Positions 14,786-21,655 of a stretch of DNA of 41,186 bases are shown piece after piece. Source of the DNA: Bacilli bacterium (lineage in GTDB: Bacteria > Bacillota_I > Bacilli_A > RF39 > UBA660); contig JAFZWF010000014.1 in assembly GCA_017617435.1 (NCBI GenBank), positions 64,573 to 105,758 on the forward strand. Direction: 5' to 3'. The notes under the pieces are model-generated. The model worked only from the letters and a program-made list of their open reading frames with translations. It searched no databases and was not told the DNA's origin. Every line of letters starts with the position of its first letter. The stretch's first letter is position 1. A program made the translations under genes and the position numbers.

Positions 14786-15061
14786 TTACATTTCTTCGTT
14801 ATATACAATCTTTCTATTTCTTACAAAAGGCTTCTTTTCTTTAATAGTTTTATTTTTTAAAGGTTTATAATCACTAATTAATTTTAAAGAATCAACAATA
14901 TCAACAATCTGCTCCATTAATATAGGATCAGTTGTATTTTTAATGGCACTTATGTCAAGTCCACAAAATGTAATAGATGTTTTTTCATTAAAATAGATAT
15001 ATTCTAATGCTTCTTCAAACTTATCTTTTAATGTTTTTTCAAAATAATTACTATGTGACAT
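14786..15061 (-). CDS. Small hypothetical protein
   Basis: 91 residues, no signal peptide or membrane segment. Mostly helical, with a Lys/Arg-rich C-terminal third (KPLKNKTIKEKKPFVRNRK). Contains ITFCGLDISAIKNTTDPILMEQ. I do not recognise a family. Bounded by its own terminator at 14752-14780. Confidence 0.7.
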   Translation of the reverse strand: MSHSNYFEKTLKDKFEEALEYIYFNEKTSITFCGLDISAIKNTTDPILMEQIVDIVDSLKLISDYKPLKNKTIKEKKPFVRNRKIVYNEEM

Positions 15062-15101
15062 ATACTTATTTATCCTTTATCATATATATTTATTATATCA
15101 T

Positions 15102-15130
15102 AAAAAAATAACTTCTTAAAAGAAGTTATT
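15102..15130 (-). terminator. Terminator overlapping the end of the CotD-like gene
   Basis: A 10-bp stem AATAACTTCT with AGAAGTTATT (15107-15130), 4-nt loop, followed on the minus strand by seven T. The stem includes the stop region of the gene. Confidence 0.7.
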
Positions 15131-15433
15131 TGGACAATTTTCATAAACATTTGAACATTCATTTTCTTCACAGCATGTGTATTCTGGTACATAAGTATGT
15201 TTATAAACATGATGATTTATAATTCTTGTATTACATGGAACAATGTGTGGAACTTCATAACAAAAATATCTATGACATACTCTTTCTCTTGGCATTTCAC
15301 ACATACTAGGACAACACATAGTAGTTGCTTGATTCATGTTAAAAGAATTATCACTCATATTCATTCCTGTTTTACTAAAATCTGTTTTTTCGTAAGAAAA
15401 ATTTTCGTTTGACTCTTTTACCTCTTGAAACAT
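15116..15433 (-). CDS. CotD-like Cys/His-rich protein
   Basis: 105 residues with a hydrophilic N-terminal third and a Cys/His/Tyr-rich rest. The stretch VPHIVPCNTRIINHHVYKH is close to the centre of CotD-family spore inner-coat proteins, which have the same N-H-H-V-Y-K-H block. Cysteines occur as CC pairs and CxxxC. If the organism does not sporulate, the protein may be a cell-surface or metal-binding relative. No other coat gene is in the window. Single-gene unit with its own terminator. Confidence 0.7.
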   Translation of the reverse strand: MFQEVKESNENFSYEKTDFSKTGMNMSDNSFNMNQATTMCCPSMCEMPRERVCHRYFCYEVPHIVPCNTRIINHHVYKHTYVPEYTCCEENECSNVYENCPNNFF

Positions 15434-15471
15434 ATTAATTATCCTTTCTACATTATCTTATGTATAGATAT

Positions 15472-16002
15472 TTAATATGTATGGGCTTGAAAATTTTTAT
15501 TGTATTCTATGCATTTTTCTTCTAACAATTTAAAGTCGCAGCATCTAATTCTAATACTTTCGTTTAATAAATTTCTATTATATTTTTCGTATAATTTTTC
15601 AGCTCTAGAATATATTTTTCCTGAGTTACGATTTAGCCACATTATTTGTTTTTTTAATAAATTCAAGTATTTTGTATCTAAAATACTGCTATTATCATTA
15701 TTTAAATCTATCAACGTTATATTCTTTCTACTTACAGGAATCATATTATTAAAATTTATTACTCCAAGATTTCCACCATCTATTTTCAAAAAATCTAATT
15801 TAGATTTCAAAGATAAATGTTTAAGTTTAGGACTCGATAAAGGAGCAAAATACATTAAACTATCGATTTTAAATAGAATACCGATATAAGGTCTTGTCTC
15901 TTTATCATTAAAATTATATGGAACTTTTTCATCAAATTTTCTTAGAAAATTGCAATAATTTTTATCTACCTTAACTAATAAAAGTTGCTTATCTATAACC
16001 AT
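15472..16002 (-). CDS. toxN: ToxN/AbiQ-type endoribonuclease toxin (type III TA)
   Basis: 176 residues, the normal ToxN size. Family landmarks in order: KFDEKVP (22-28), PYIGILF (38-44), FAPLSSPK (52-59; Ser56-Ser57-Pro-Lys59 matches the T-S-x-K catalytic region of ToxN), GVINFNNMIPV, LDTKYLNLLKKQIMWLN and FKLLEEKC near the C-terminus. ToxN cuts mRNA at A-rich sites and is held inactive by its ToxI RNA. Upstream on the same strand are three ToxI-like repeats and, between them and this gene, a terminator, the exact arrangement of toxIN loci. Such systems give abortive-infection phage defence and plasmid or island maintenance. Confidence 0.92.
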   Translation of the reverse strand: MVIDKQLLLVKVDKNYCNFLRKFDEKVPYNFNDKETRPYIGILFKIDSLMYFAPLSSPKLKHLSLKSKLDFLKIDGGNLGVINFNNMIPVSRKNITLIDLNNDNSSILDTKYLNLLKKQIMWLNRNSGKIYSRAEKLYEKYNRNLLNESIRIRCCDFKLLEEKCIEYNKNFQAHTY

Positions 16003-16078
16003 ATTTGTTTTAAATCCCTCCTTTCATTAGGAGGATTATATTATTATAAAATTGAGAATATTGTCGAAGTAAAGAAAA

Positions 16079-16098
16079 AACTAGAGTTTTGCTCTCTA
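16079..16098 (-). terminator. Intrinsic terminator between toxI and toxN
   Basis: CTAGAG with CTCTAG stem (about 16080-16098) followed on the minus strand by TTTTTT. It lies after the ToxI repeats and before toxN. In known ToxIN loci such a terminator keeps antitoxin RNA in large excess over toxin mRNA. Confidence 0.85.
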
Positions 16099-16110
16099 GC
16101 TTCATTTTTA

Positions 16111-16215
16111 GTTTCCTCTTAATGGTGGGAATCACCACTTTTTTAGTTTCCTCTTAGAGGTGGGAATCACCGCTTTTTTGGTTTCCTCTTAGTGGTGGGA
16201 ATCACCAGCTTTTTT
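16111..16215 (-). ncRNA. toxI: ToxI antitoxin RNA, three 35-nt repeats
   Basis: Three direct repeats of exactly 35 bp: 16111-16145, 16146-16180, 16181-16215. Each has the core GTTTCCTCTTA and GGTGGGAATCACC on the plus strand; differences are few and mostly flank the small stem GGTG/CACC. On the minus strand each unit reads from an A-run (AAAAAAG) through GGTGATTCCCACC to AAGAGGAAAC, suiting a pseudoknot with single-stranded tails. ToxN is known to cut its own ToxI precursor within A-rich ends, so the A-runs are the likely cut sites. Three units fit the 3:3 protein-RNA triangle known for ToxIN. Confidence 0.88.
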
Positions 16216-16218
16216 AAT

Positions 16219-16233
16219 GCGTTATATCAACGC
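16219..16233 (-). other. Small hairpin at the predicted 5' end of toxI RNA
   Basis: GCGTT-GATAT-AACGC, a 5-bp stem. It begins at about the position where transcription from the promoter just upstream should start. Possible 5' cap hairpin that protects the RNA. Confidence 0.45.
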
Positions 16234-16239
16234 AAGATT

Positions 16240-16268
16240 AATATACAACACCTAATTCTTTTTGTCAA
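16240..16268 (-). promoter_or_regulatory. Consensus promoter of toxI-toxN
   Basis: On the minus strand TTGACA (16268-16263), 17-bp spacer, TATATT (16245-16240). A near-perfect strong promoter directly before the ToxI repeats, as expected for abundant antitoxin RNA. Confidence 0.85.
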
Positions 16269-16318
16269 CTTGTATAAAATCATACAGTGATTAAACAATA
16301 ATAATATTAATGAAACTA

Positions 16319-17416
16319 TTAATTATAGCATCTCTTATTTAAATAGAATTTATTTTTAGATAAATATTTTATATATCCACCATAATTTGATATAGCGTTA
16401 CACTTTTTTATTTTCCTTTTATTATAAGAACTCATAGTTATGTACACTTTATTATTATTTATTAAAAACCTATAACCCAAAAAATTAATACCATTTTTTA
16501 TTGGTATTATTTGAGTTTTTTTATTAATTACTAACTCTTCACCTTTAACAAATTTATTAATTTCACCATAACAATATTTTAAATAATTTTTGTCATAGTG
16601 AAACAATACAAAATCATCCATATACCTAATATAATACTTTATTTTTAATTTTTCTTTAATAAAATGATCTAGATCATTTAAATAGAATATTGCGAATATT
16701 TGTGATGATACATTACCAATTGGTAAGCCCTTGTTGTAACTGTAATTTGGAATTGAAGATATACTTTTAATTAACATTTCTTTTTCTTTTAAAGTAATAT
16801 TTTTATATTTTATATCTTTAATAAATCTATCTTTGATTTTTTGTATATTATTATTAATATATTCATGATTAGTACTATTAATTATTTCTTCTAAAATATT
16901 AAGCACATCTTTATCTTTAATATATTTATTTAGTTTATTTAAGAGAATTCTATGATCTATTGAATAAAAAAACTTTTTAATATCACATTTTAGAATATAA
17001 AAATTATTATATTTTTGTTTCATTATATTCAAATACTTTTTCATATAATAAATGCCCATTTTAGTTCCTTTATCTTTTCTTGTTGCAACGTTAGCACATA
17101 TTAACTTAGGTTCAATAAGTGGAAGAAGAATATATTCGCTAAATAAGTGATTAATAATTTTGTCATGTAAATTTTCACTCATGATGATTCTAGGTTTGGG
17201 TTTTGTTATTAAAAATACATTATAATAATTATGTTTATATTCTCTATTTTTTAATGTTTCAATTATATATGATATGTTACAACTTAAGAACATATCATAT
17301 TTAATTAATTTATGTTTATATTTTGTTTTCTTTTTTATTTTATTGTAAACATATATGATTTTAGAAGGATCCAAAATAGATTCATAGGATAAATTAATCT
17401 GTTTCTTTTTCATCAT
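16319..17416 (-). CDS. DGR reverse transcriptase
   Basis: 365 residues. Copies the template-repeat RNA into cDNA with errors at adenines. RT motifs: KCDIKKFFYSID (143-154; catalytic Asp145), GLPIGNVSSQ (230-239), YMDDF (265-269; Asp267-Asp268) and NFLGYRF (311-317). The motif IGNVSSQ in place of the QGxxxSP of group II intron RTs is the hallmark of DGR enzymes. There is no maturase or endonuclease domain. Its start overlaps the end of the Avd-like gene by 23 bp, suggesting coupled translation. Codon use is AT-rich like the neighbours. Confidence 0.96.
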   Translation of the reverse strand: MMKKKQINLSYESILDPSKIIYVYNKIKKKTKYKHKLIKYDMFLSCNISYIIETLKNREYKHNYYNVFLITKPKPRIIMSENLHDKIINHLFSEYILLPLIEPKLICANVATRKDKGTKMGIYYMKKYLNIMKQKYNNFYILKCDIKKFFYSIDHRILLNKLNKYIKDKDVLNILEEIINSTNHEYINNNIQKIKDRFIKDIKYKNITLKEKEMLIKSISSIPNYSYNKGLPIGNVSSQIFAIFYLNDLDHFIKEKLKIKYYIRYMDDFVLFHYDKNYLKYCYGEINKFVKGEELVINKKTQIIPIKNGINFLGYRFLINNNKVYITMSSYNKRKIKKCNAISNYGGYIKYLSKNKFYLNKRCYN

Positions 17417-17750
17417 CTTTCTTTATAAGACTATAAGTCATTTTTTTGATTTCATTAAATCTATTTCCTAAAACAACAAATTGTCTTTTTGATATTACTT
17501 TTTTCTTAAAACTTAATTGTGCATAGAAATCTATCATTGATATGTTAACAAGAAAATCTTTTAAATATTTTTGTTTTATTCTCTCTACTATATTTATATT
17601 ATAAGAAAATAAATTTTCCATCATCGTATAATATGTTTTTTCAATATTTTGTTTTAAAACAAATTCATTTTTTGGATAATTAGGAAGTAATTTATTAAAG
17701 TATTCCATTGTTAAAGCAACTTTATTAAGAAGTTGAAACTTATAATTCAT
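17394..17750 (-). CDS. avd: Avd-like accessory variability determinant
   Basis: 118 residues from the ATG at 17750 (a TTG lies one codon upstream). Basic, all-helical protein in the pattern of the Avd/four-helix-bundle family (related to 23S rRNA intervening-sequence proteins). The conserved third and fourth helices read LVNISMIDFYAQLSFKKK and ISKRQFVVLGNRFNEIKKM. In the Bordetella phage DGR, Avd forms a pentamer that binds the RT and the template RNA and is essential for mutagenic homing. It overlaps the upstream MutS-like ORF by 11 bp and the RT by 23 bp. Confidence 0.88.
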   Translation of the reverse strand: MNYKFQLLNKVALTMEYFNKLLPNYPKNEFVLKQNIEKTYYTMMENLFSYNINIVERIKQKYLKDFLVNISMIDFYAQLSFKKKVISKRQFVVLGNRFNEIKKMTYSLIKKDDEKETD

Positions 17751-18141
17751 CAATAAACTTTCTTATTTTATCATAATTTGAATTATCATAATTAATTAAA
17801 TACTCTATACGATCAAGTAAAGTTTTATTAAGTAAATTATGATAATTTTCTTTATCTATTTTCCTTAATAATTCTTGATATCTATTTGCTTTAAACTCTT
17901 TCTTATTTGCTATTTCTTGTCCTTCAATAAAAATGTAATTGATTTTTTCATTATCTAATTTATTAAGCACTTTATTAAGTGACGATAAAGGAAAACCTAC
18001 TCTATCATTTATTATTTTATAATCAAACAATTTTTTTAGAACTTCTGCATCTTTAAAAAAAGATACATAAAAATTTCCTGATTTGAAAAATAAAACATAA
18101 TTTATATAATCATTTTTTAGTTTTTGATACTCATTTTTCAT
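17740..18141 (-). CDS. MutS-domain-I-like DGR accessory protein (MSL type)
   Basis: 133 residues. Residues 5-60 follow the mismatch-recognition domain I of MutS: YQKLKNDYINYVLFFKSGNFYVSFFKDA is the counterpart of the MutS opening, in which Y-x-x-L-K leads into L-F-x-x-G-D-F-Y-E-x-F-x-x-D-A. NDRVGFP and YIFIEGQ match later parts. MutS has Phe-Tyr-Glu at the wedge; here it is Phe24-Tyr25-Val26, so the key Phe is kept and the Glu lost. No ATPase or clamp domains. First gene behind the terminator that follows the template region, overlapping avd. MutS-like ORFs have been noted beside some other DGR RTs; their role is unknown. Confidence 0.78.
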   Translation of the reverse strand: MKNEYQKLKNDYINYVLFFKSGNFYVSFFKDAEVLKKLFDYKIINDRVGFPLSSLNKVLNKLDNEKINYIFIEGQEIANKKEFKANRYQELLRKIDKENYHNLLNKTLLDRIEYLINYDNSNYDKIRKFIDEL

Positions 18142-18157
18142 TACTTGCTACCTTTCA

Positions 18158-18192
18158 AAAAAAATTTCAGGAGACATGAATATGTCTCCTGA
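18158..18192 (-). terminator. Terminator/attenuator between template region and MSL-avd-RT
   Basis: A perfect 11-bp stem, TCAGGAGACAT with ATGTCTCCTGA (18167-18192), 4-nt loop, then AAATTTTTTTT on the minus strand. It ends 17 bp before the MutS-like start codon. The protein genes should be expressed only by read-through or from a promoter hidden within it. Confidence 0.75.
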
Positions 18193-18333
18193 TAATAGAT
18201 GCAATAGAAACTAAAAAATATATTATATTTATATCGTCTAACTTCGTCATCTATTTTATATTTAGGAACTTAATAAAGTAATCCATGGTCAACCTTGTTT
18301 CCAATCCAAATTAAATTTTATAATTTATAGATT

Positions 18334-18365
18334 ATAACATAACATGCAGATGCATGTTATGTTAT
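18334..18365 (-). other. Long hairpin downstream of the template repeat
   Basis: A perfect 14-bp stem, ATAACATAACATGC with GCATGTTATGTTAT, 4-nt loop. No T-run follows, so not a plain terminator. It lies 76 bp beyond the template repeat and inside the predicted template RNA; in the known DGR the RNA beyond TR is structured and binds Avd-RT, so this may be part of that platform. Confidence 0.55.
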
Positions 18366-18440
18366 TACCCCTTCTCTTTACCAACCTTAATCAATAAAAC
18401 TCAGAAAGTAATATATAAATTACCACTATAGGTAGGAAAT

Positions 18441-18549
18441 TGGGCGCACGCCGTAGCTCGTCGTTGGATTGTTGTTCGTCAGATAGCCGGTTGAATTCAC
18501 GTTCCAAACGTTCGCGTTCGCATTATTAGCATTGAAGATGTACGGCGAC
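18441..18549 (-). repeat. DGR template repeat (TR)
   Basis: 109 bp aligned without gaps to the variable repeat at 18748-18856 (offset 307). They differ at 12 positions: 18461, 18472, 18476, 18492, 18497, 18503, 18511, 18517, 18526, 18533, 18539, 18541. Each is T here on the plus strand, i.e. A in the coding sense; none of the 77 non-A positions differ. Changes are 7 A-to-T, 4 A-to-G and 1 A-to-C. Read in the VR frame, TR has ten Asn codons (AAC/AAT). The 3' end (CGAGCTACGGCGTGCGCCCA) is GC-rich and identical to VR, as expected for the IMH-like end. Transcribed with its flanks as the template RNA. Confidence 0.97.
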
Positions 18550-18622
18550 CCATCACCAAAATGACCTAAATAGGTTAACCAAGATATATATTAAATTATA
18601 TATCCCAAATTTAAGAAAAATT

Positions 18623-18654
18623 TTGTGTGATAATGAGGAGTCATTATCACACAA
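18623..18654 (-). terminator. Terminator of the DGR target gene
   Basis: A perfect 14-bp stem, TTGTGTGATAATGA with TCATTATCACACAA, 4-nt loop, followed on the minus strand by AAAATTTTTCTT. It lies 13 bp after the stop codon and before TR. It could also be the structured element that DGRs often need downstream of VR. Confidence 0.75.
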
Positions 18655-18666
18655 TTGCACACTATT

Positions 18667-20682
18667 TTATTGTAGTTTAACTTTATATGGTGTAGCTTCC
18701 TGACCATTTCCAGAGTCATAGAGAACTGAAGATGACAGATTGATTACTGGGCGCACGCCGTAGCTCGACGTTGGATTGCTGTACGTCAGATAGCCGGTAG
18801 AATACACGTACCAAACGCTCGCGATCGCATTACTAGCATAGAAGAGGCACGGCGACATTGTCCAGTAAGTAGCTCCTGTATATAAATAGTATCCACTATT
18901 TGTATTTGAACTACCATAAACACCACCTGCATATGAAGCTTCATCTGCAGTTATTAAACCAACTGGATACCTAAGTTGTCCATTTCCACTACTTCTTTGA
19001 GACACTATACTATTAGTAGAAGAACCTAAAGTAAATCCATCATTTGATTTATTAGCACATTTATAAGATGGTGCTTTAGTTGATGCTGTAAGTCTTGTAT
19101 ATGGTGAATAATAGAAATGATCAGAGCCTGTTAAAGGGAAAGTCTGATTTGTTTTTGTAGTACTTCTATCTCCACAGAAGATTTCATCAGCTAAATATTC
19201 TTCATAATATTTTGATGTTGCTTCAGTTCCATCTTTTTTATTATAGATATTTGTTTCATACCATGACTCTAACTCTGTTTTTATTTTACTATCTTTAACA
19301 TTTGAATTTGATGCACCTTCACTTGATGAGAATAATCCATGATATTTTACTTTTGCTTGTGTTGCTTGATTTTTAACTGTTCCAACTATTTCAGATACAA
19401 CTGGGCATGAAATATATACACTAGTTGTATTATTACTATTATTTTTAGTTACAGCAGTTCCATAACCCCAGCATGTGTAAACATAATCACTTGTGTATAC
19501 ATATGCACTTGATGTTGCACCAGCATCACTTGTTGAATAATTACTAGTATTAGTTGCTTGTGTGTTCCAATTTGTTAAAATACAATCATCACCTAAATTA
19601 TTACACTTTAATGTACATGTTCCTGATTCGTCATTATCACTTCCTGTAAAACAATCTGCATTCATATCAAAGTTTTTAAATAAATAATATTGTTTAGTAT
19701 TATCTATATTTGTAAATGTTGGAAATGTTCCAAGATTTTTTGTTGTACTTAATTCATATTCTGGGTGTGTATATAATACTTTTGCTGGATTATACATGTA
19801 ACCTACATAAGTATTTCCATATCTACCATTTGAGTATGTAGTTGTAACTTGTGTATTAGTTAAACCAGTAATATCAGTTGTTGTAGTTGTATAACTTGTG
19901 GTATCACTAAAAGGACTAGTTTTTATCTGAGCATTTGTTCCTGTATGGTTAGATGATTTAGTACCTGAATAAATTAAACGAACAGAACCATCTCCATTAA
20001 TTCTAACTATTCTCCAATAAAAACCAGCAAATTCGACCCAGTTATTATCTACAGCTCCACGATAATAATATGTTGCTCCATCATCATCTTCTGCTTTATA
20101 TAAACCAGCGTTAGTAGATGTACTTGCAACTGTATTAAAACTTACATTTTGTGATCTATTATTTATAATTTCTAAATTAGCATCAAGTGTTGATCCACCT
20201 TCAGCCATTAAAAGCTTATATGCAAGTGTATTAGTATCAGCTCCATCAGCAATTATAGGATTATAATCTCCACAGCTTGAAGCAAAACCTTGAGGCATGT
20301 TATCTTTAACATCACTTGATGTTAAATTATCTGAACCAGTTAGATAAAACTTACCATCTGTTAAATTGATAACATATGATATGTTATCATTATTTATATT
20401 TATTTTAATAACACCATTATAATCACTACTATCTTTTTTAACATAGTTTTCATTTAAATCAGATATATTTATACATTTAGATCCGATATCATCAACATCA
20501 AAAACAAGTGATTCTTTAGCAGCATTTAAATAAACGAGTGCTTCATCTACTAAAGCATTCTTTTTAGCTTTATTCATTCTTGGTATTACTGCTGTAACAG
20601 CTATTAAAATAACAACAGCTAATATTACAATAACTGCAAGAAGTTCCACCAATGTGAAACCATATTTATTTTTTTTATTCAT
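18667..20682 (-). CDS. DGR target: prepilin-like surface protein with diversified C-terminus
   Basis: 671 residues. It starts with a type IV prepilin/pseudopilin signal: KKNKYGFTLVELLAVIVIL, with Gly8 before the cut and Glu at +5 of the mature form, then a hydrophobic helix to about residue 35. The ectodomain has many Thr/Ser/Cys. Residues 210-230 (FAGFYWRIVRINGDGSVRLI) and the C-terminal block from YWTMSP (605-610) to YGVRPVINLSSS (about 641-652) follow the FGE/C-type-lectin-like layout of many DGR targets. The variable repeat encodes residues about 609-645. Probably displayed on the cell surface through a type IV pilus or pseudopilus, with the variable face as ligand-binding site. Confidence 0.93.
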   Translation of the reverse strand: MNKKNKYGFTLVELLAVIVILAVVILIAVTAVIPRMNKAKKNALVDEALVYLNAAKESLVFDVDDIGSKCINISDLNENYVKKDSSDYNGVIKININNDNISYVINLTDGKFYLTGSDNLTSSDVKDNMPQGFASSCGDYNPIIADGADTNTLAYKLLMAEGGSTLDANLEIINNRSQNVSFNTVASTSTNAGLYKAEDDDGATYYYRGAVDNNWVEFAGFYWRIVRINGDGSVRLIYSGTKSSNHTGTNAQIKTSPFSDTTSYTTTTTDITGLTNTQVTTTYSNGRYGNTYVGYMYNPAKVLYTHPEYELSTTKNLGTFPTFTNIDNTKQYYLFKNFDMNADCFTGSDNDESGTCTLKCNNLGDDCILTNWNTQATNTSNYSTSDAGATSSAYVYTSDYVYTCWGYGTAVTKNNSNNTTSVYISCPVVSEIVGTVKNQATQAKVKYHGLFSSSEGASNSNVKDSKIKTELESWYETNIYNKKDGTEATSKYYEEYLADEIFCGDRSTTKTNQTFPLTGSDHFYYSPYTRLTASTKAPSYKCANKSNDGFTLGSSTNSIVSQRSSGNGQLRYPVGLITADEASYAGGVYGSSNTNSGYYLYTGATYWTMSPCLFYASNAIASVWYVYSTGYLTYSNPTSSYGVRPVINLSSSVLYDSGNGQEATPYKVKLQ
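18748..18856 (-). repeat. DGR variable repeat (VR)
   Basis: Copy of TR inside the prepilin-like gene. Of the 12 A-site differences 11 change an amino acid: eight of ten template Asn become Tyr (4), Ser (3) or Ile (1); Tyr becomes Cys, Ile becomes Leu and Thr becomes Ser. One change is silent. The invariant scaffold (SP, VW, STGYLT, NP, SYGVRP) is untouched. The GC-rich 3' 20 bp (18767-18748) are identical to TR. Confidence 0.97.
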
Positions 20683-20727
20683 AATTATTTCAACCCTTCA
20701 ACTATATACTCTTCTATTATATTAATA

Positions 20728-20756
20728 AGTATACCCCCCCTGCATATTTTTGTCAA
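20728..20756 (-). promoter_or_regulatory. Promoter of the DGR target gene with a G7 spacer tract
   Basis: On the minus strand TTGACA (20756-20751), a 17-bp spacer and TATACT (20733-20728), 46 bp before the start codon. The seven spacer bases next to the -10 are all G. Loss or gain of one G would make the spacer 16 or 18 bp. Confidence 0.8.
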
Positions 20757-20758
20757 TT

Positions 20759-20779
20759 GAAAACCCTGGACTGGTTTTC
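20759..20779. promoter_or_regulatory. Inverted repeat beside the target promoter
   Basis: GAAAACC and GGTTTTC separated by 7 bp, ending 3 bp from the -35 box. No T-run, so an operator is more likely than a terminator. A candidate binding site for a regulator such as the KilA-N protein encoded next to it. Confidence 0.45.
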
Positions 20780-20809
20780 CCGGTTTACAAATGTTTTTTT
20801 TATAATTAA

Positions 20810-21655
20810 TTAGGTATTTTTTTTAGTATTTTCTATTTTATTATTTTGGACTAATTCAAATTGCTTTCTGGCTATGTCATTAAGTTTTATTAAACGCTCT
20901 CTTTGACTTAAATTATTTTTTATTAATTCAGCATTTATATTTTCCAAATTATTTAGTATTAATAAATGAACTAAATCCGTATAATCTCTAATATTACCAT
21001 TTTTAGCAAGTAAAGGATTTTTTTCTCTCCACTCTTTAGCAGTCATTCCAAATAATGCAACATTTAATATATCTGCTTCTTCTTGATAAACAAATCTTTT
21101 TTGTGTCTCGCTTAGAGTTGGTATCAAATCATTTTTTACAGCATCTGTATGAACTAGATAATTAATTTTTGTTAGCATTCTAGATGCATGCCAATCAAGT
21201 TTACTTTGATAGTTTTCATTTCTTTTAAGTCTTTGAAATTCAGTTATAAGATAAAGCTTAAACTCTGGAGAGAGCCAGCTGGCAAATTCAAATGCTATGT
21301 CACTTACTGCATAAGTTCCACTATCGTACCTACCTGATTTGGATACCATCCCTATAGCATTAGTAGAATTAATCCATTTTTGTGGAGAAATCCTAAAACT
21401 ATTGCTACCAGCACTATTTTTAAAGGTGTCGAATTCGACACCTTTAAAATTCTCATTATGAATATTCTCCCATAATCCAAGATAAGAAATTACATCTTTA
21501 TTTCTCATCCAGTTTTGAATTGGTATTTTTGGTTCGTCAGAATCAGCATACCTAGCTATGTCAGTTAATGATATATATTCCATACCATTATGCATAATTA
21601 CTCTTACTTTATGATTATTTACAATTAGTTCTTCTTGTATATTATTTTTATCCAA
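20810..21655 (-). CDS. KilA-N domain protein
   Basis: 281 residues from a TTG start (21655-21653), GGAG 11 nt upstream. The KilA-N DNA-binding domain covers about residues 10-140: YISLTDIARYADSDEPKIPIQNWMRNKD, FRISPQKWINSTNAIGMVSKSGRY and DIAFEFASWLSPEFKLYLITEFQRLK. The C-terminal half is helical. These proteins occur in phages, prophages and gut-bacterial genomes and probably act as regulators or anti-repressors. It stands upstream of the DGR target, same strand, 127 bp away. No phage structural genes are present. Confidence 0.88.
   Translation of the reverse strand: MDKNNIQEELIVNNHKVRVIMHNGMEYISLTDIARYADSDEPKIPIQNWMRNKDVISYLGLWENIHNENFKGVEFDTFKNSAGSNSFRISPQKWINSTNAIGMVSKSGRYDSGTYAVSDIAFEFASWLSPEFKLYLITEFQRLKRNENYQSKLDWHASRMLTKINYLVHTDAVKNDLIPTLSETQKRFVYQEEADILNVALFGMTAKEWREKNPLLAKNGNIRDYTDLVHLLILNNLENINAELIKNNLSQRERLIKLNDIARKQFELVQNNKIENTKKNT
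21418..21449. repeat. Perfect 32-bp palindrome inside the KilA-N gene
   Basis: Sixteen bases on each side of the centre (between 21433 and 21434) are exact reverse complements; the core is GGTGTCGAATTCGACACC. It encodes FKGVEFDTFK, which matches a conserved family stretch, so protein constraint explains part of it but not the full symmetry. Confidence 0.8.

Follow-up and report, generated by a model that had tools for sequence, protein, structure and literature searches.

The DGR Locus and Its MutS-like ORF

The window, by which we mean the whole stretch of 41,186 nucleotides that was analysed, contains a DGR on its minus strand. Read along this strand, the order is the target gene with its variable repeat (VR), a hairpin, the template repeat (TR), a structured RNA, a second hairpin, a short ORF named MSL (MutS-like), avd and the reverse transcriptase (RT) gene. 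The features are the following:

18667..20682, minus strand: DGR target gene, 671 aa, with a prepilin-type N terminus and the VR near its 3' end
18746..18856, minus strand: VR, 111 bp, with 13 differences from the TR
18623..18654, minus strand: terminator-like hairpin after the target gene
18439..18549, minus strand: TR, 111 bp, with 33 adenines
18250..18438, minus strand: structured RNA directly 3' of the TR (14 sequences; helix 5 covaries)
18167..18192, minus strand: terminator-like hairpin between the TR RNA and MSL
17740..18141, minus strand: MSL accessory ORF, 133 aa, ATG start, identified by profile search
17884..18141, minus strand: MutS domain I fold, residues 1-86, from profile, predicted structure and structure searches
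18064..18081, minus strand: wedge motif S-G-N-F-Y-V, residues 21-26, with Val26 at the MutS Glu position
17746..17880, minus strand: C-terminal helices outside MutS_I, residues 88-132, headed by the conserved Asn86-x-Tyr88
17394..17753, minus strand: avd (ATG at 17750), overlapping MSL by 11-14 nt and the RT gene by 23 nt
16319..17416, minus strand: DGR RT, 365 aa, with SSQ and YMDD motifs

All the elements by which a DGR is recognized, namely RT, Avd, TR, VR and substitutions at TR adenines, are present at this locus. The avd product matched the PHROG "Avd protein of DGR" at 4e-13, and its matches to Pfam bAvd (E 5.4e-7) and NCBIfam DivGenRetAVD (9.7e-9) were below the cut-offs. All 13 differences between TR and VR are at TR adenines, and the only copies of the TR in the genome, which is 71% complete, are the TR itself and the VR. 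The DGR of the window is intact. The prepilin-type N terminus of the target protein suggests that the diversified end may be displayed on a pilus-like structure. Adjoining the DGR is a type III toxin-antitoxin system: a gene for the ToxN toxin (15472-16002, minus strand; Pfam 3.9e-47) is preceded at ~16100-16220 by about three repeats, nearly identical and each with GGTGGGAATCACC, that resemble the RNA antitoxin.

The RNA fold 3' of the TR was evaluated with 14 sequences, in which 95.6% of the cells are paired and 32 double changes were found versus 9.5 in shuffles, chiefly in helix 5. This fold is common to related DGRs with and without MSL. A screen of positions 15000-21000 of the window against Rfam gave no match, and we take the RNA to correspond to the spacer RNA of BPP-1. 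The terminator-like hairpin ahead of MSL is present in 7 of 32 loci, so it is not a general feature. In the chromosomal clade, 33 of 35 pairs have the TR upstream of avd; all 60 viral loci that contain avd have it between avd and the RT gene. Several loci (L054, L055, L058, L061, L064-L067, L070 and L117) have a gap of ~0.6 kb between avd and the RT gene, and the TR, where found in these loci, is upstream of avd. The RT genes of L030, L033, L035 and L039 lack the YxDD stretch or are in two frames; these are decaying DGRs or assembly errors.

The ORF Encodes a Stand-Alone MutS Domain I

The original prediction placed a lone MutS domain I that overlaps avd at positions 17740-18141. These coordinates are correct, and the strand, which had not been given, is the minus strand. 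The overlap with avd is 14 nt when avd starts at the TTG at 17753 and 11 nt when it starts at the ATG at 17750. The profile search that had been proposed as a check gave a clear match: residues 3-80 matched Pfam MutS_I (PF01624) with an E value of 1.4e-9 (6.1e-10 in a second search) and a score of 38.6 bits, above the curated cut-off of 20.6. MutS_I is the single Pfam family in the ORF, which does not contain the core, clamp and ATPase domains of MutS; indeed, no further MutS domain would fit within 133 aa. MutS_I was matched at E <= 1 by every one of the 50 members of the family alignment, and the profile built from these members had solved MutS, MSH6 and MSH3 chains as its top matches (best E 2.7e-6). 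NCBIfam has no MSL model and gave only MutS rows far below cut-off for the ORF, PADLOC has no MSL model and gave no row, and the PHROG rows were all weak and of unknown function.

The AlphaFold2 model of the ORF, based on a 50-row alignment, has a mean pLDDT of 97.2 and a pTM of 0.82. Foldseek searches of the PDB with this model gave 51 matches at E <= 1e-3, and the 50 listed are all MutS/MSH. Using VIA-align, residues 2-86 were superposed on residues 14-119 of E. coli MutS (Z 13.4, 83 residues). The 43 best-ranking entries were all MutS/MSH, followed by the damage-recognition domain of XPB, a distant fold likeness (Z 4.8) below the trusted level of the tool. No other fold came out, and the assignment to MutS domain I therefore stands on both profile and structure. 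Beyond MutS_I, the model contains helices at residues 88-118 and 122-132. Phe24 and Tyr25 of the wedge are retained and Val replaces the Glu, so that the Phe-X-Glu motif of the MutS repair protein is absent (Phe-Tyr-Val instead). The ORF sequence thus also bears out the predicted presence of the wedge Phe-Tyr and absence of the Glu and the ATPase.

A chance match was rejected because the MutS_I match is family-wide and the fold agrees. We also rejected the possibility that the ORF is a fragment of a split mutS gene, because the genome has a separate MutS, the relatives are conserved and of the same length, and the dN/dS is low (see below).

According to PMC10053308, which cites Wu 2018, HRDC and MSL (Pfam PF01624) proteins are known DGR accessory proteins, and the ORF is what that article words as MSL, a stand-alone PF01624 in a DGR cassette. 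The ORF is therefore not a new kind of protein, since MSL-type accessory proteins have already been described. It is likened to the MSL of Wu 2018 by the description in PMC10053308, and Wu 2018 may or may not already contain the Glu loss, the branch without a wedge and the shift of the TR that are reported here.

Distribution of MSL

A protein search that covered 98 genomes yielded 27 short-frame loci, one of which (L049) was rejected as a member: it is a genuine mutS interrupted by a single TGA, and the short frame is the beginning of that gene. A candidate in G235 was also rejected, being a mutS that continues in the next frame. For 22 of the 26 stand-alone MSL relatives, an RT is present in the fetched locus. 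The loci L047 and L040 stop inside the ORF or no more than ~200 nt away from it, and L028 and L034 extend 730-795 nt beyond the ORF without avd or RT, which counts against the view that MSL is an Avd-side subunit.

Next to this search, an RT alignment was used for a scan, of which the best 80 chromosomal and the best 80 viral loci out of more were analyzed; the records are titled as uncultured Bacilli and relatives. Among the best 80 chromosomal loci, MSL is upstream in 43 and downstream of the RT gene in 5, a wedge-less relative is present in 9, none is present in 21, and 2 are undecided because of a contig edge. The presence of MSL in 48 of these best 80 loci and its overlap with avd in 40 of the 43 upstream copies are new here. 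The five downstream copies count against the Avd-side reading.

MSL was found in none of the best 80 viral RT loci, and a single-protein scan of viral contigs with the ORF gave no relative. In phages, two records matched, both annotated as mutS, and in plasmids no MSL match was obtained. Full-length MSL matches are present in 4 of 245 genomes of the phylum, all four from the family of the window. Short MutS_I frames occur in four further genomes (G015, G045, G046 and G053). L129 (10185-10988) and L036 (7319-7657) contain second or third MSL-like frames within one locus, and in L233 (G050:C107:4587-4823) a MutS_I match of 66.8 bits lies within a 2959-aa open frame.

Residue Conservation, Loss of the Wedge and Turnover

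Residues were counted in 51 sequences, i.e., the window and 50 family hits. Tyr25 is conserved in all 51 sequences, Gly22, Phe24, Asp31, Phe50 and Pro51 in 50 each, Tyr88 in 49, Tyr41 in 48 and Asn86 in 46. By comparison, a Glu at the MutS Glu position is present in 5 of the 51. The Glu-bearing members (L086, L097, L099, L100 and L108) all fall within one early-branching group of 16 rows in the RT tree, and the presence or absence of Glu changes three times over 58 rows of this tree.

Nine loci (L085, L087, L089, L090, L094, L095, L096, L103 and L110), which form one clade on the RT tree, encode proteins of ~110 aa that occupy the MSL position and overlap avd, and that do not contain the G-x-F-Y and GFP motifs. 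These wedge-less proteins match the MSL profile (hhalign E 9.4e-8, probability 94), and all nine give weak matches to MutS_I (best 0.011). The model of a wedge-less protein (pLDDT 89.7) has MutS as its top structure match, though at no better than E 3.1e-3; it was built on an alignment that included wedge-bearing relatives, and the fold is hence not independent of the assumed kinship.

The median dN/dS values are 0.16 for MSL, 0.08 for avd and 0.14 for RT, calculated over 128 close, non-independent pairs in many of which dS is saturated. With the wedge-less proteins scored as present, MSL switches between presence and absence 10 times across 78 rows of the RT tree, a quick tree on which such changes do not separate gain from loss. 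The MSL gene is under purifying selection yet dispensable.

MSL and the Choice of Adenines

The original prediction considered that MSL could help to choose the A sites. TR/VR pairs passing the filters were obtained for 17 loci with MSL (16 upstream, 1 downstream), 14 without and 4 with a wedge-less relative; 58 of the 160 loci were left out, having no TR/VR pair or failing the length, A-share or distance filters. The fraction of TR adenines substituted is 0.499 for loci with MSL upstream, 0.543 downstream, 0.494 without MSL and 0.571 for wedge-less loci. Neither this fraction (0.50, n = 17 with MSL, versus 0.494, n = 14 without; p 0.81) nor the substitution spectrum (p 0.14) differs between loci with and without MSL, and differences at positions other than A are 7 of 295 with MSL and 12 of 239 without. 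The adenine fraction and the A-specificity are thus the same in related DGRs without MSL, and a choice of adenines by MSL is unsupported. In standing VRs, MSL sets neither which nor how many adenines differ. Since VR/TR differences sum many rounds plus selection, they are a blunt measure of the yield per event, and the comparison says little on this yield or on mismatch repair.

Host Mismatch Repair

The genome of the window encodes a full MutS of 852 aa and a MutL of 601 aa, the latter called from its MutL_C match; the broader MutL-type ATPase family, which matches other proteins too, was left aside. Full-length MutS was found in 18 of 20 MSL-bearing genomes and not detected in G038 (93% complete) and G054 (71% complete). 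Because MutS is near-universal, the co-occurrence of MSL and MutS across hosts is uninformative.

According to PMC3848065, the wedge of E. coli MutS contacts the mismatched base by stacking of the Phe and by a bond from the Glu, and changing Glu38 to Gln abolishes the discrimination between mismatched and normal duplex. By analogy with these E. coli E38 mutants, loss of the Glu in MSL would remove rather than sharpen mismatch discrimination.

Discussion

MSL resembles domain I of MutS and MSH6 in its fold and its wedge Phe-Tyr. It differs from these proteins in having no Glu, connector, core, clamp, ATPase or dimer part, and in having additional C-terminal helices. Domain I of MSH2 and MSH3 has, like the ORF, a MutS_I fold without Phe-X-Glu (PMC3848065), but there it is part of a full MutS homologue, and the Phe is retained in MSL. 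The HRDC accessory protein of DGRs (PMC4891356) is comparable in being a DNA-processing domain encoded beside and overlapping DGR genes; its domain is unrelated, and the HRDC gene of T. denticola overlaps RT.

Our preferred reading, which we hold tentatively and at somewhat less than an even chance, is that the ORF encodes an MSL-type accessory subunit on the Avd side of the DGR, whose wedge holds a distorted duplex made by the RT. A MutS domain I would have been recruited into the DGR protein operon and would be made together with Avd. It may dock through its C-terminal helices on the strongly basic Avd/RT complex, while its Phe-Tyr wedge, together with the basic face of the N-terminal part, would hold a weakened duplex without strict mismatch discrimination, either a mispaired TR-RNA/cDNA hybrid or the cDNA/VR heteroduplex. 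Retrohoming would thereby gain in yield or stability, and MSL would not choose adenines. The median net charges are +8 for Avd, +33 for RT, +3 for the N-domain of MSL and -1 for its C-terminal helices; the helices of the window's own ORF have a net charge of 0, which counts against docking on the Avd side. The contact surface of MutS comes from a dimer, and a lone domain I may also bind DNA poorly.

Since the wedge-less relatives keep their place and predicted fold, the role common to the family is probably a protein-protein one. An alternative is that MSL serves as a scaffold only, joining Avd to RT or stabilising Avd, and that what is left of the wedge is a remnant now packed into the interior or used to bind protein. 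The nine-member branch beside avd is in line with it, as are the conserved Asn86-x-Tyr88 and the helices outside MutS_I; against it, the Phe-Tyr is otherwise retained in 50-51 of the 51 sequences, unlike a decaying remnant. We regard it as rather unlikely. A role as an RNA chaperone, in which MSL would bind the folded TR/spacer RNA and set priming, would fit the position of MSL directly after the structured RNA, here behind a terminator-like hairpin. Against it, 6 loci among the 14 aligned have the identical RNA structure and no MSL, and this role is improbable.

MSL could also coat the cDNA/VR heteroduplex as a shield, thereby blocking the start of repair by the host MutS. The setting fits, with both MutS and MutL encoded by the host and MSL being a MutS_I without the ATPase or MutL-binding domains, and in PMC12875486 mutS was deleted so that DGR substitutions persist in E. 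coli. Against it, the substituted fraction and the spectrum are equal with and without MSL, MutS was not detectable in two of the 20 MSL-bearing genomes (one of them 71% complete), and MSL is frequently missing though MutS is near-universal in the family. Moreover, one branch has lost the wedge with place and fold kept, and MSL is dispensable on the RT tree. We consider such a shield to be quite unlikely. That MSL selects which template adenines mutate, for which only its membership of the operon speaks, is highly improbable in view of the equal A fraction and A-specificity in loci without it.

A further proposal, speculative and in our view rather doubtful, is that MSL represents a switch from repair to mutation: the domain would bind mispaired duplex without discrimination, raise the fixation of mutations and ward off host repair. 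If this were true, the family would display living steps of the switch, from Phe-Tyr-Glu (five members) through Phe-Tyr-x (most members) to no wedge. A repair-sensor domain without Glu and ATPase, selected beside Avd, offers a direct test of how DGR mutations escape repair and are fixed, which takes one gene, one residue (Phe24) and two hosts, one having mutS and the other lacking it. As natural members of the family retain the Glu, lack it or lack the whole wedge, the parts can be tested separately.
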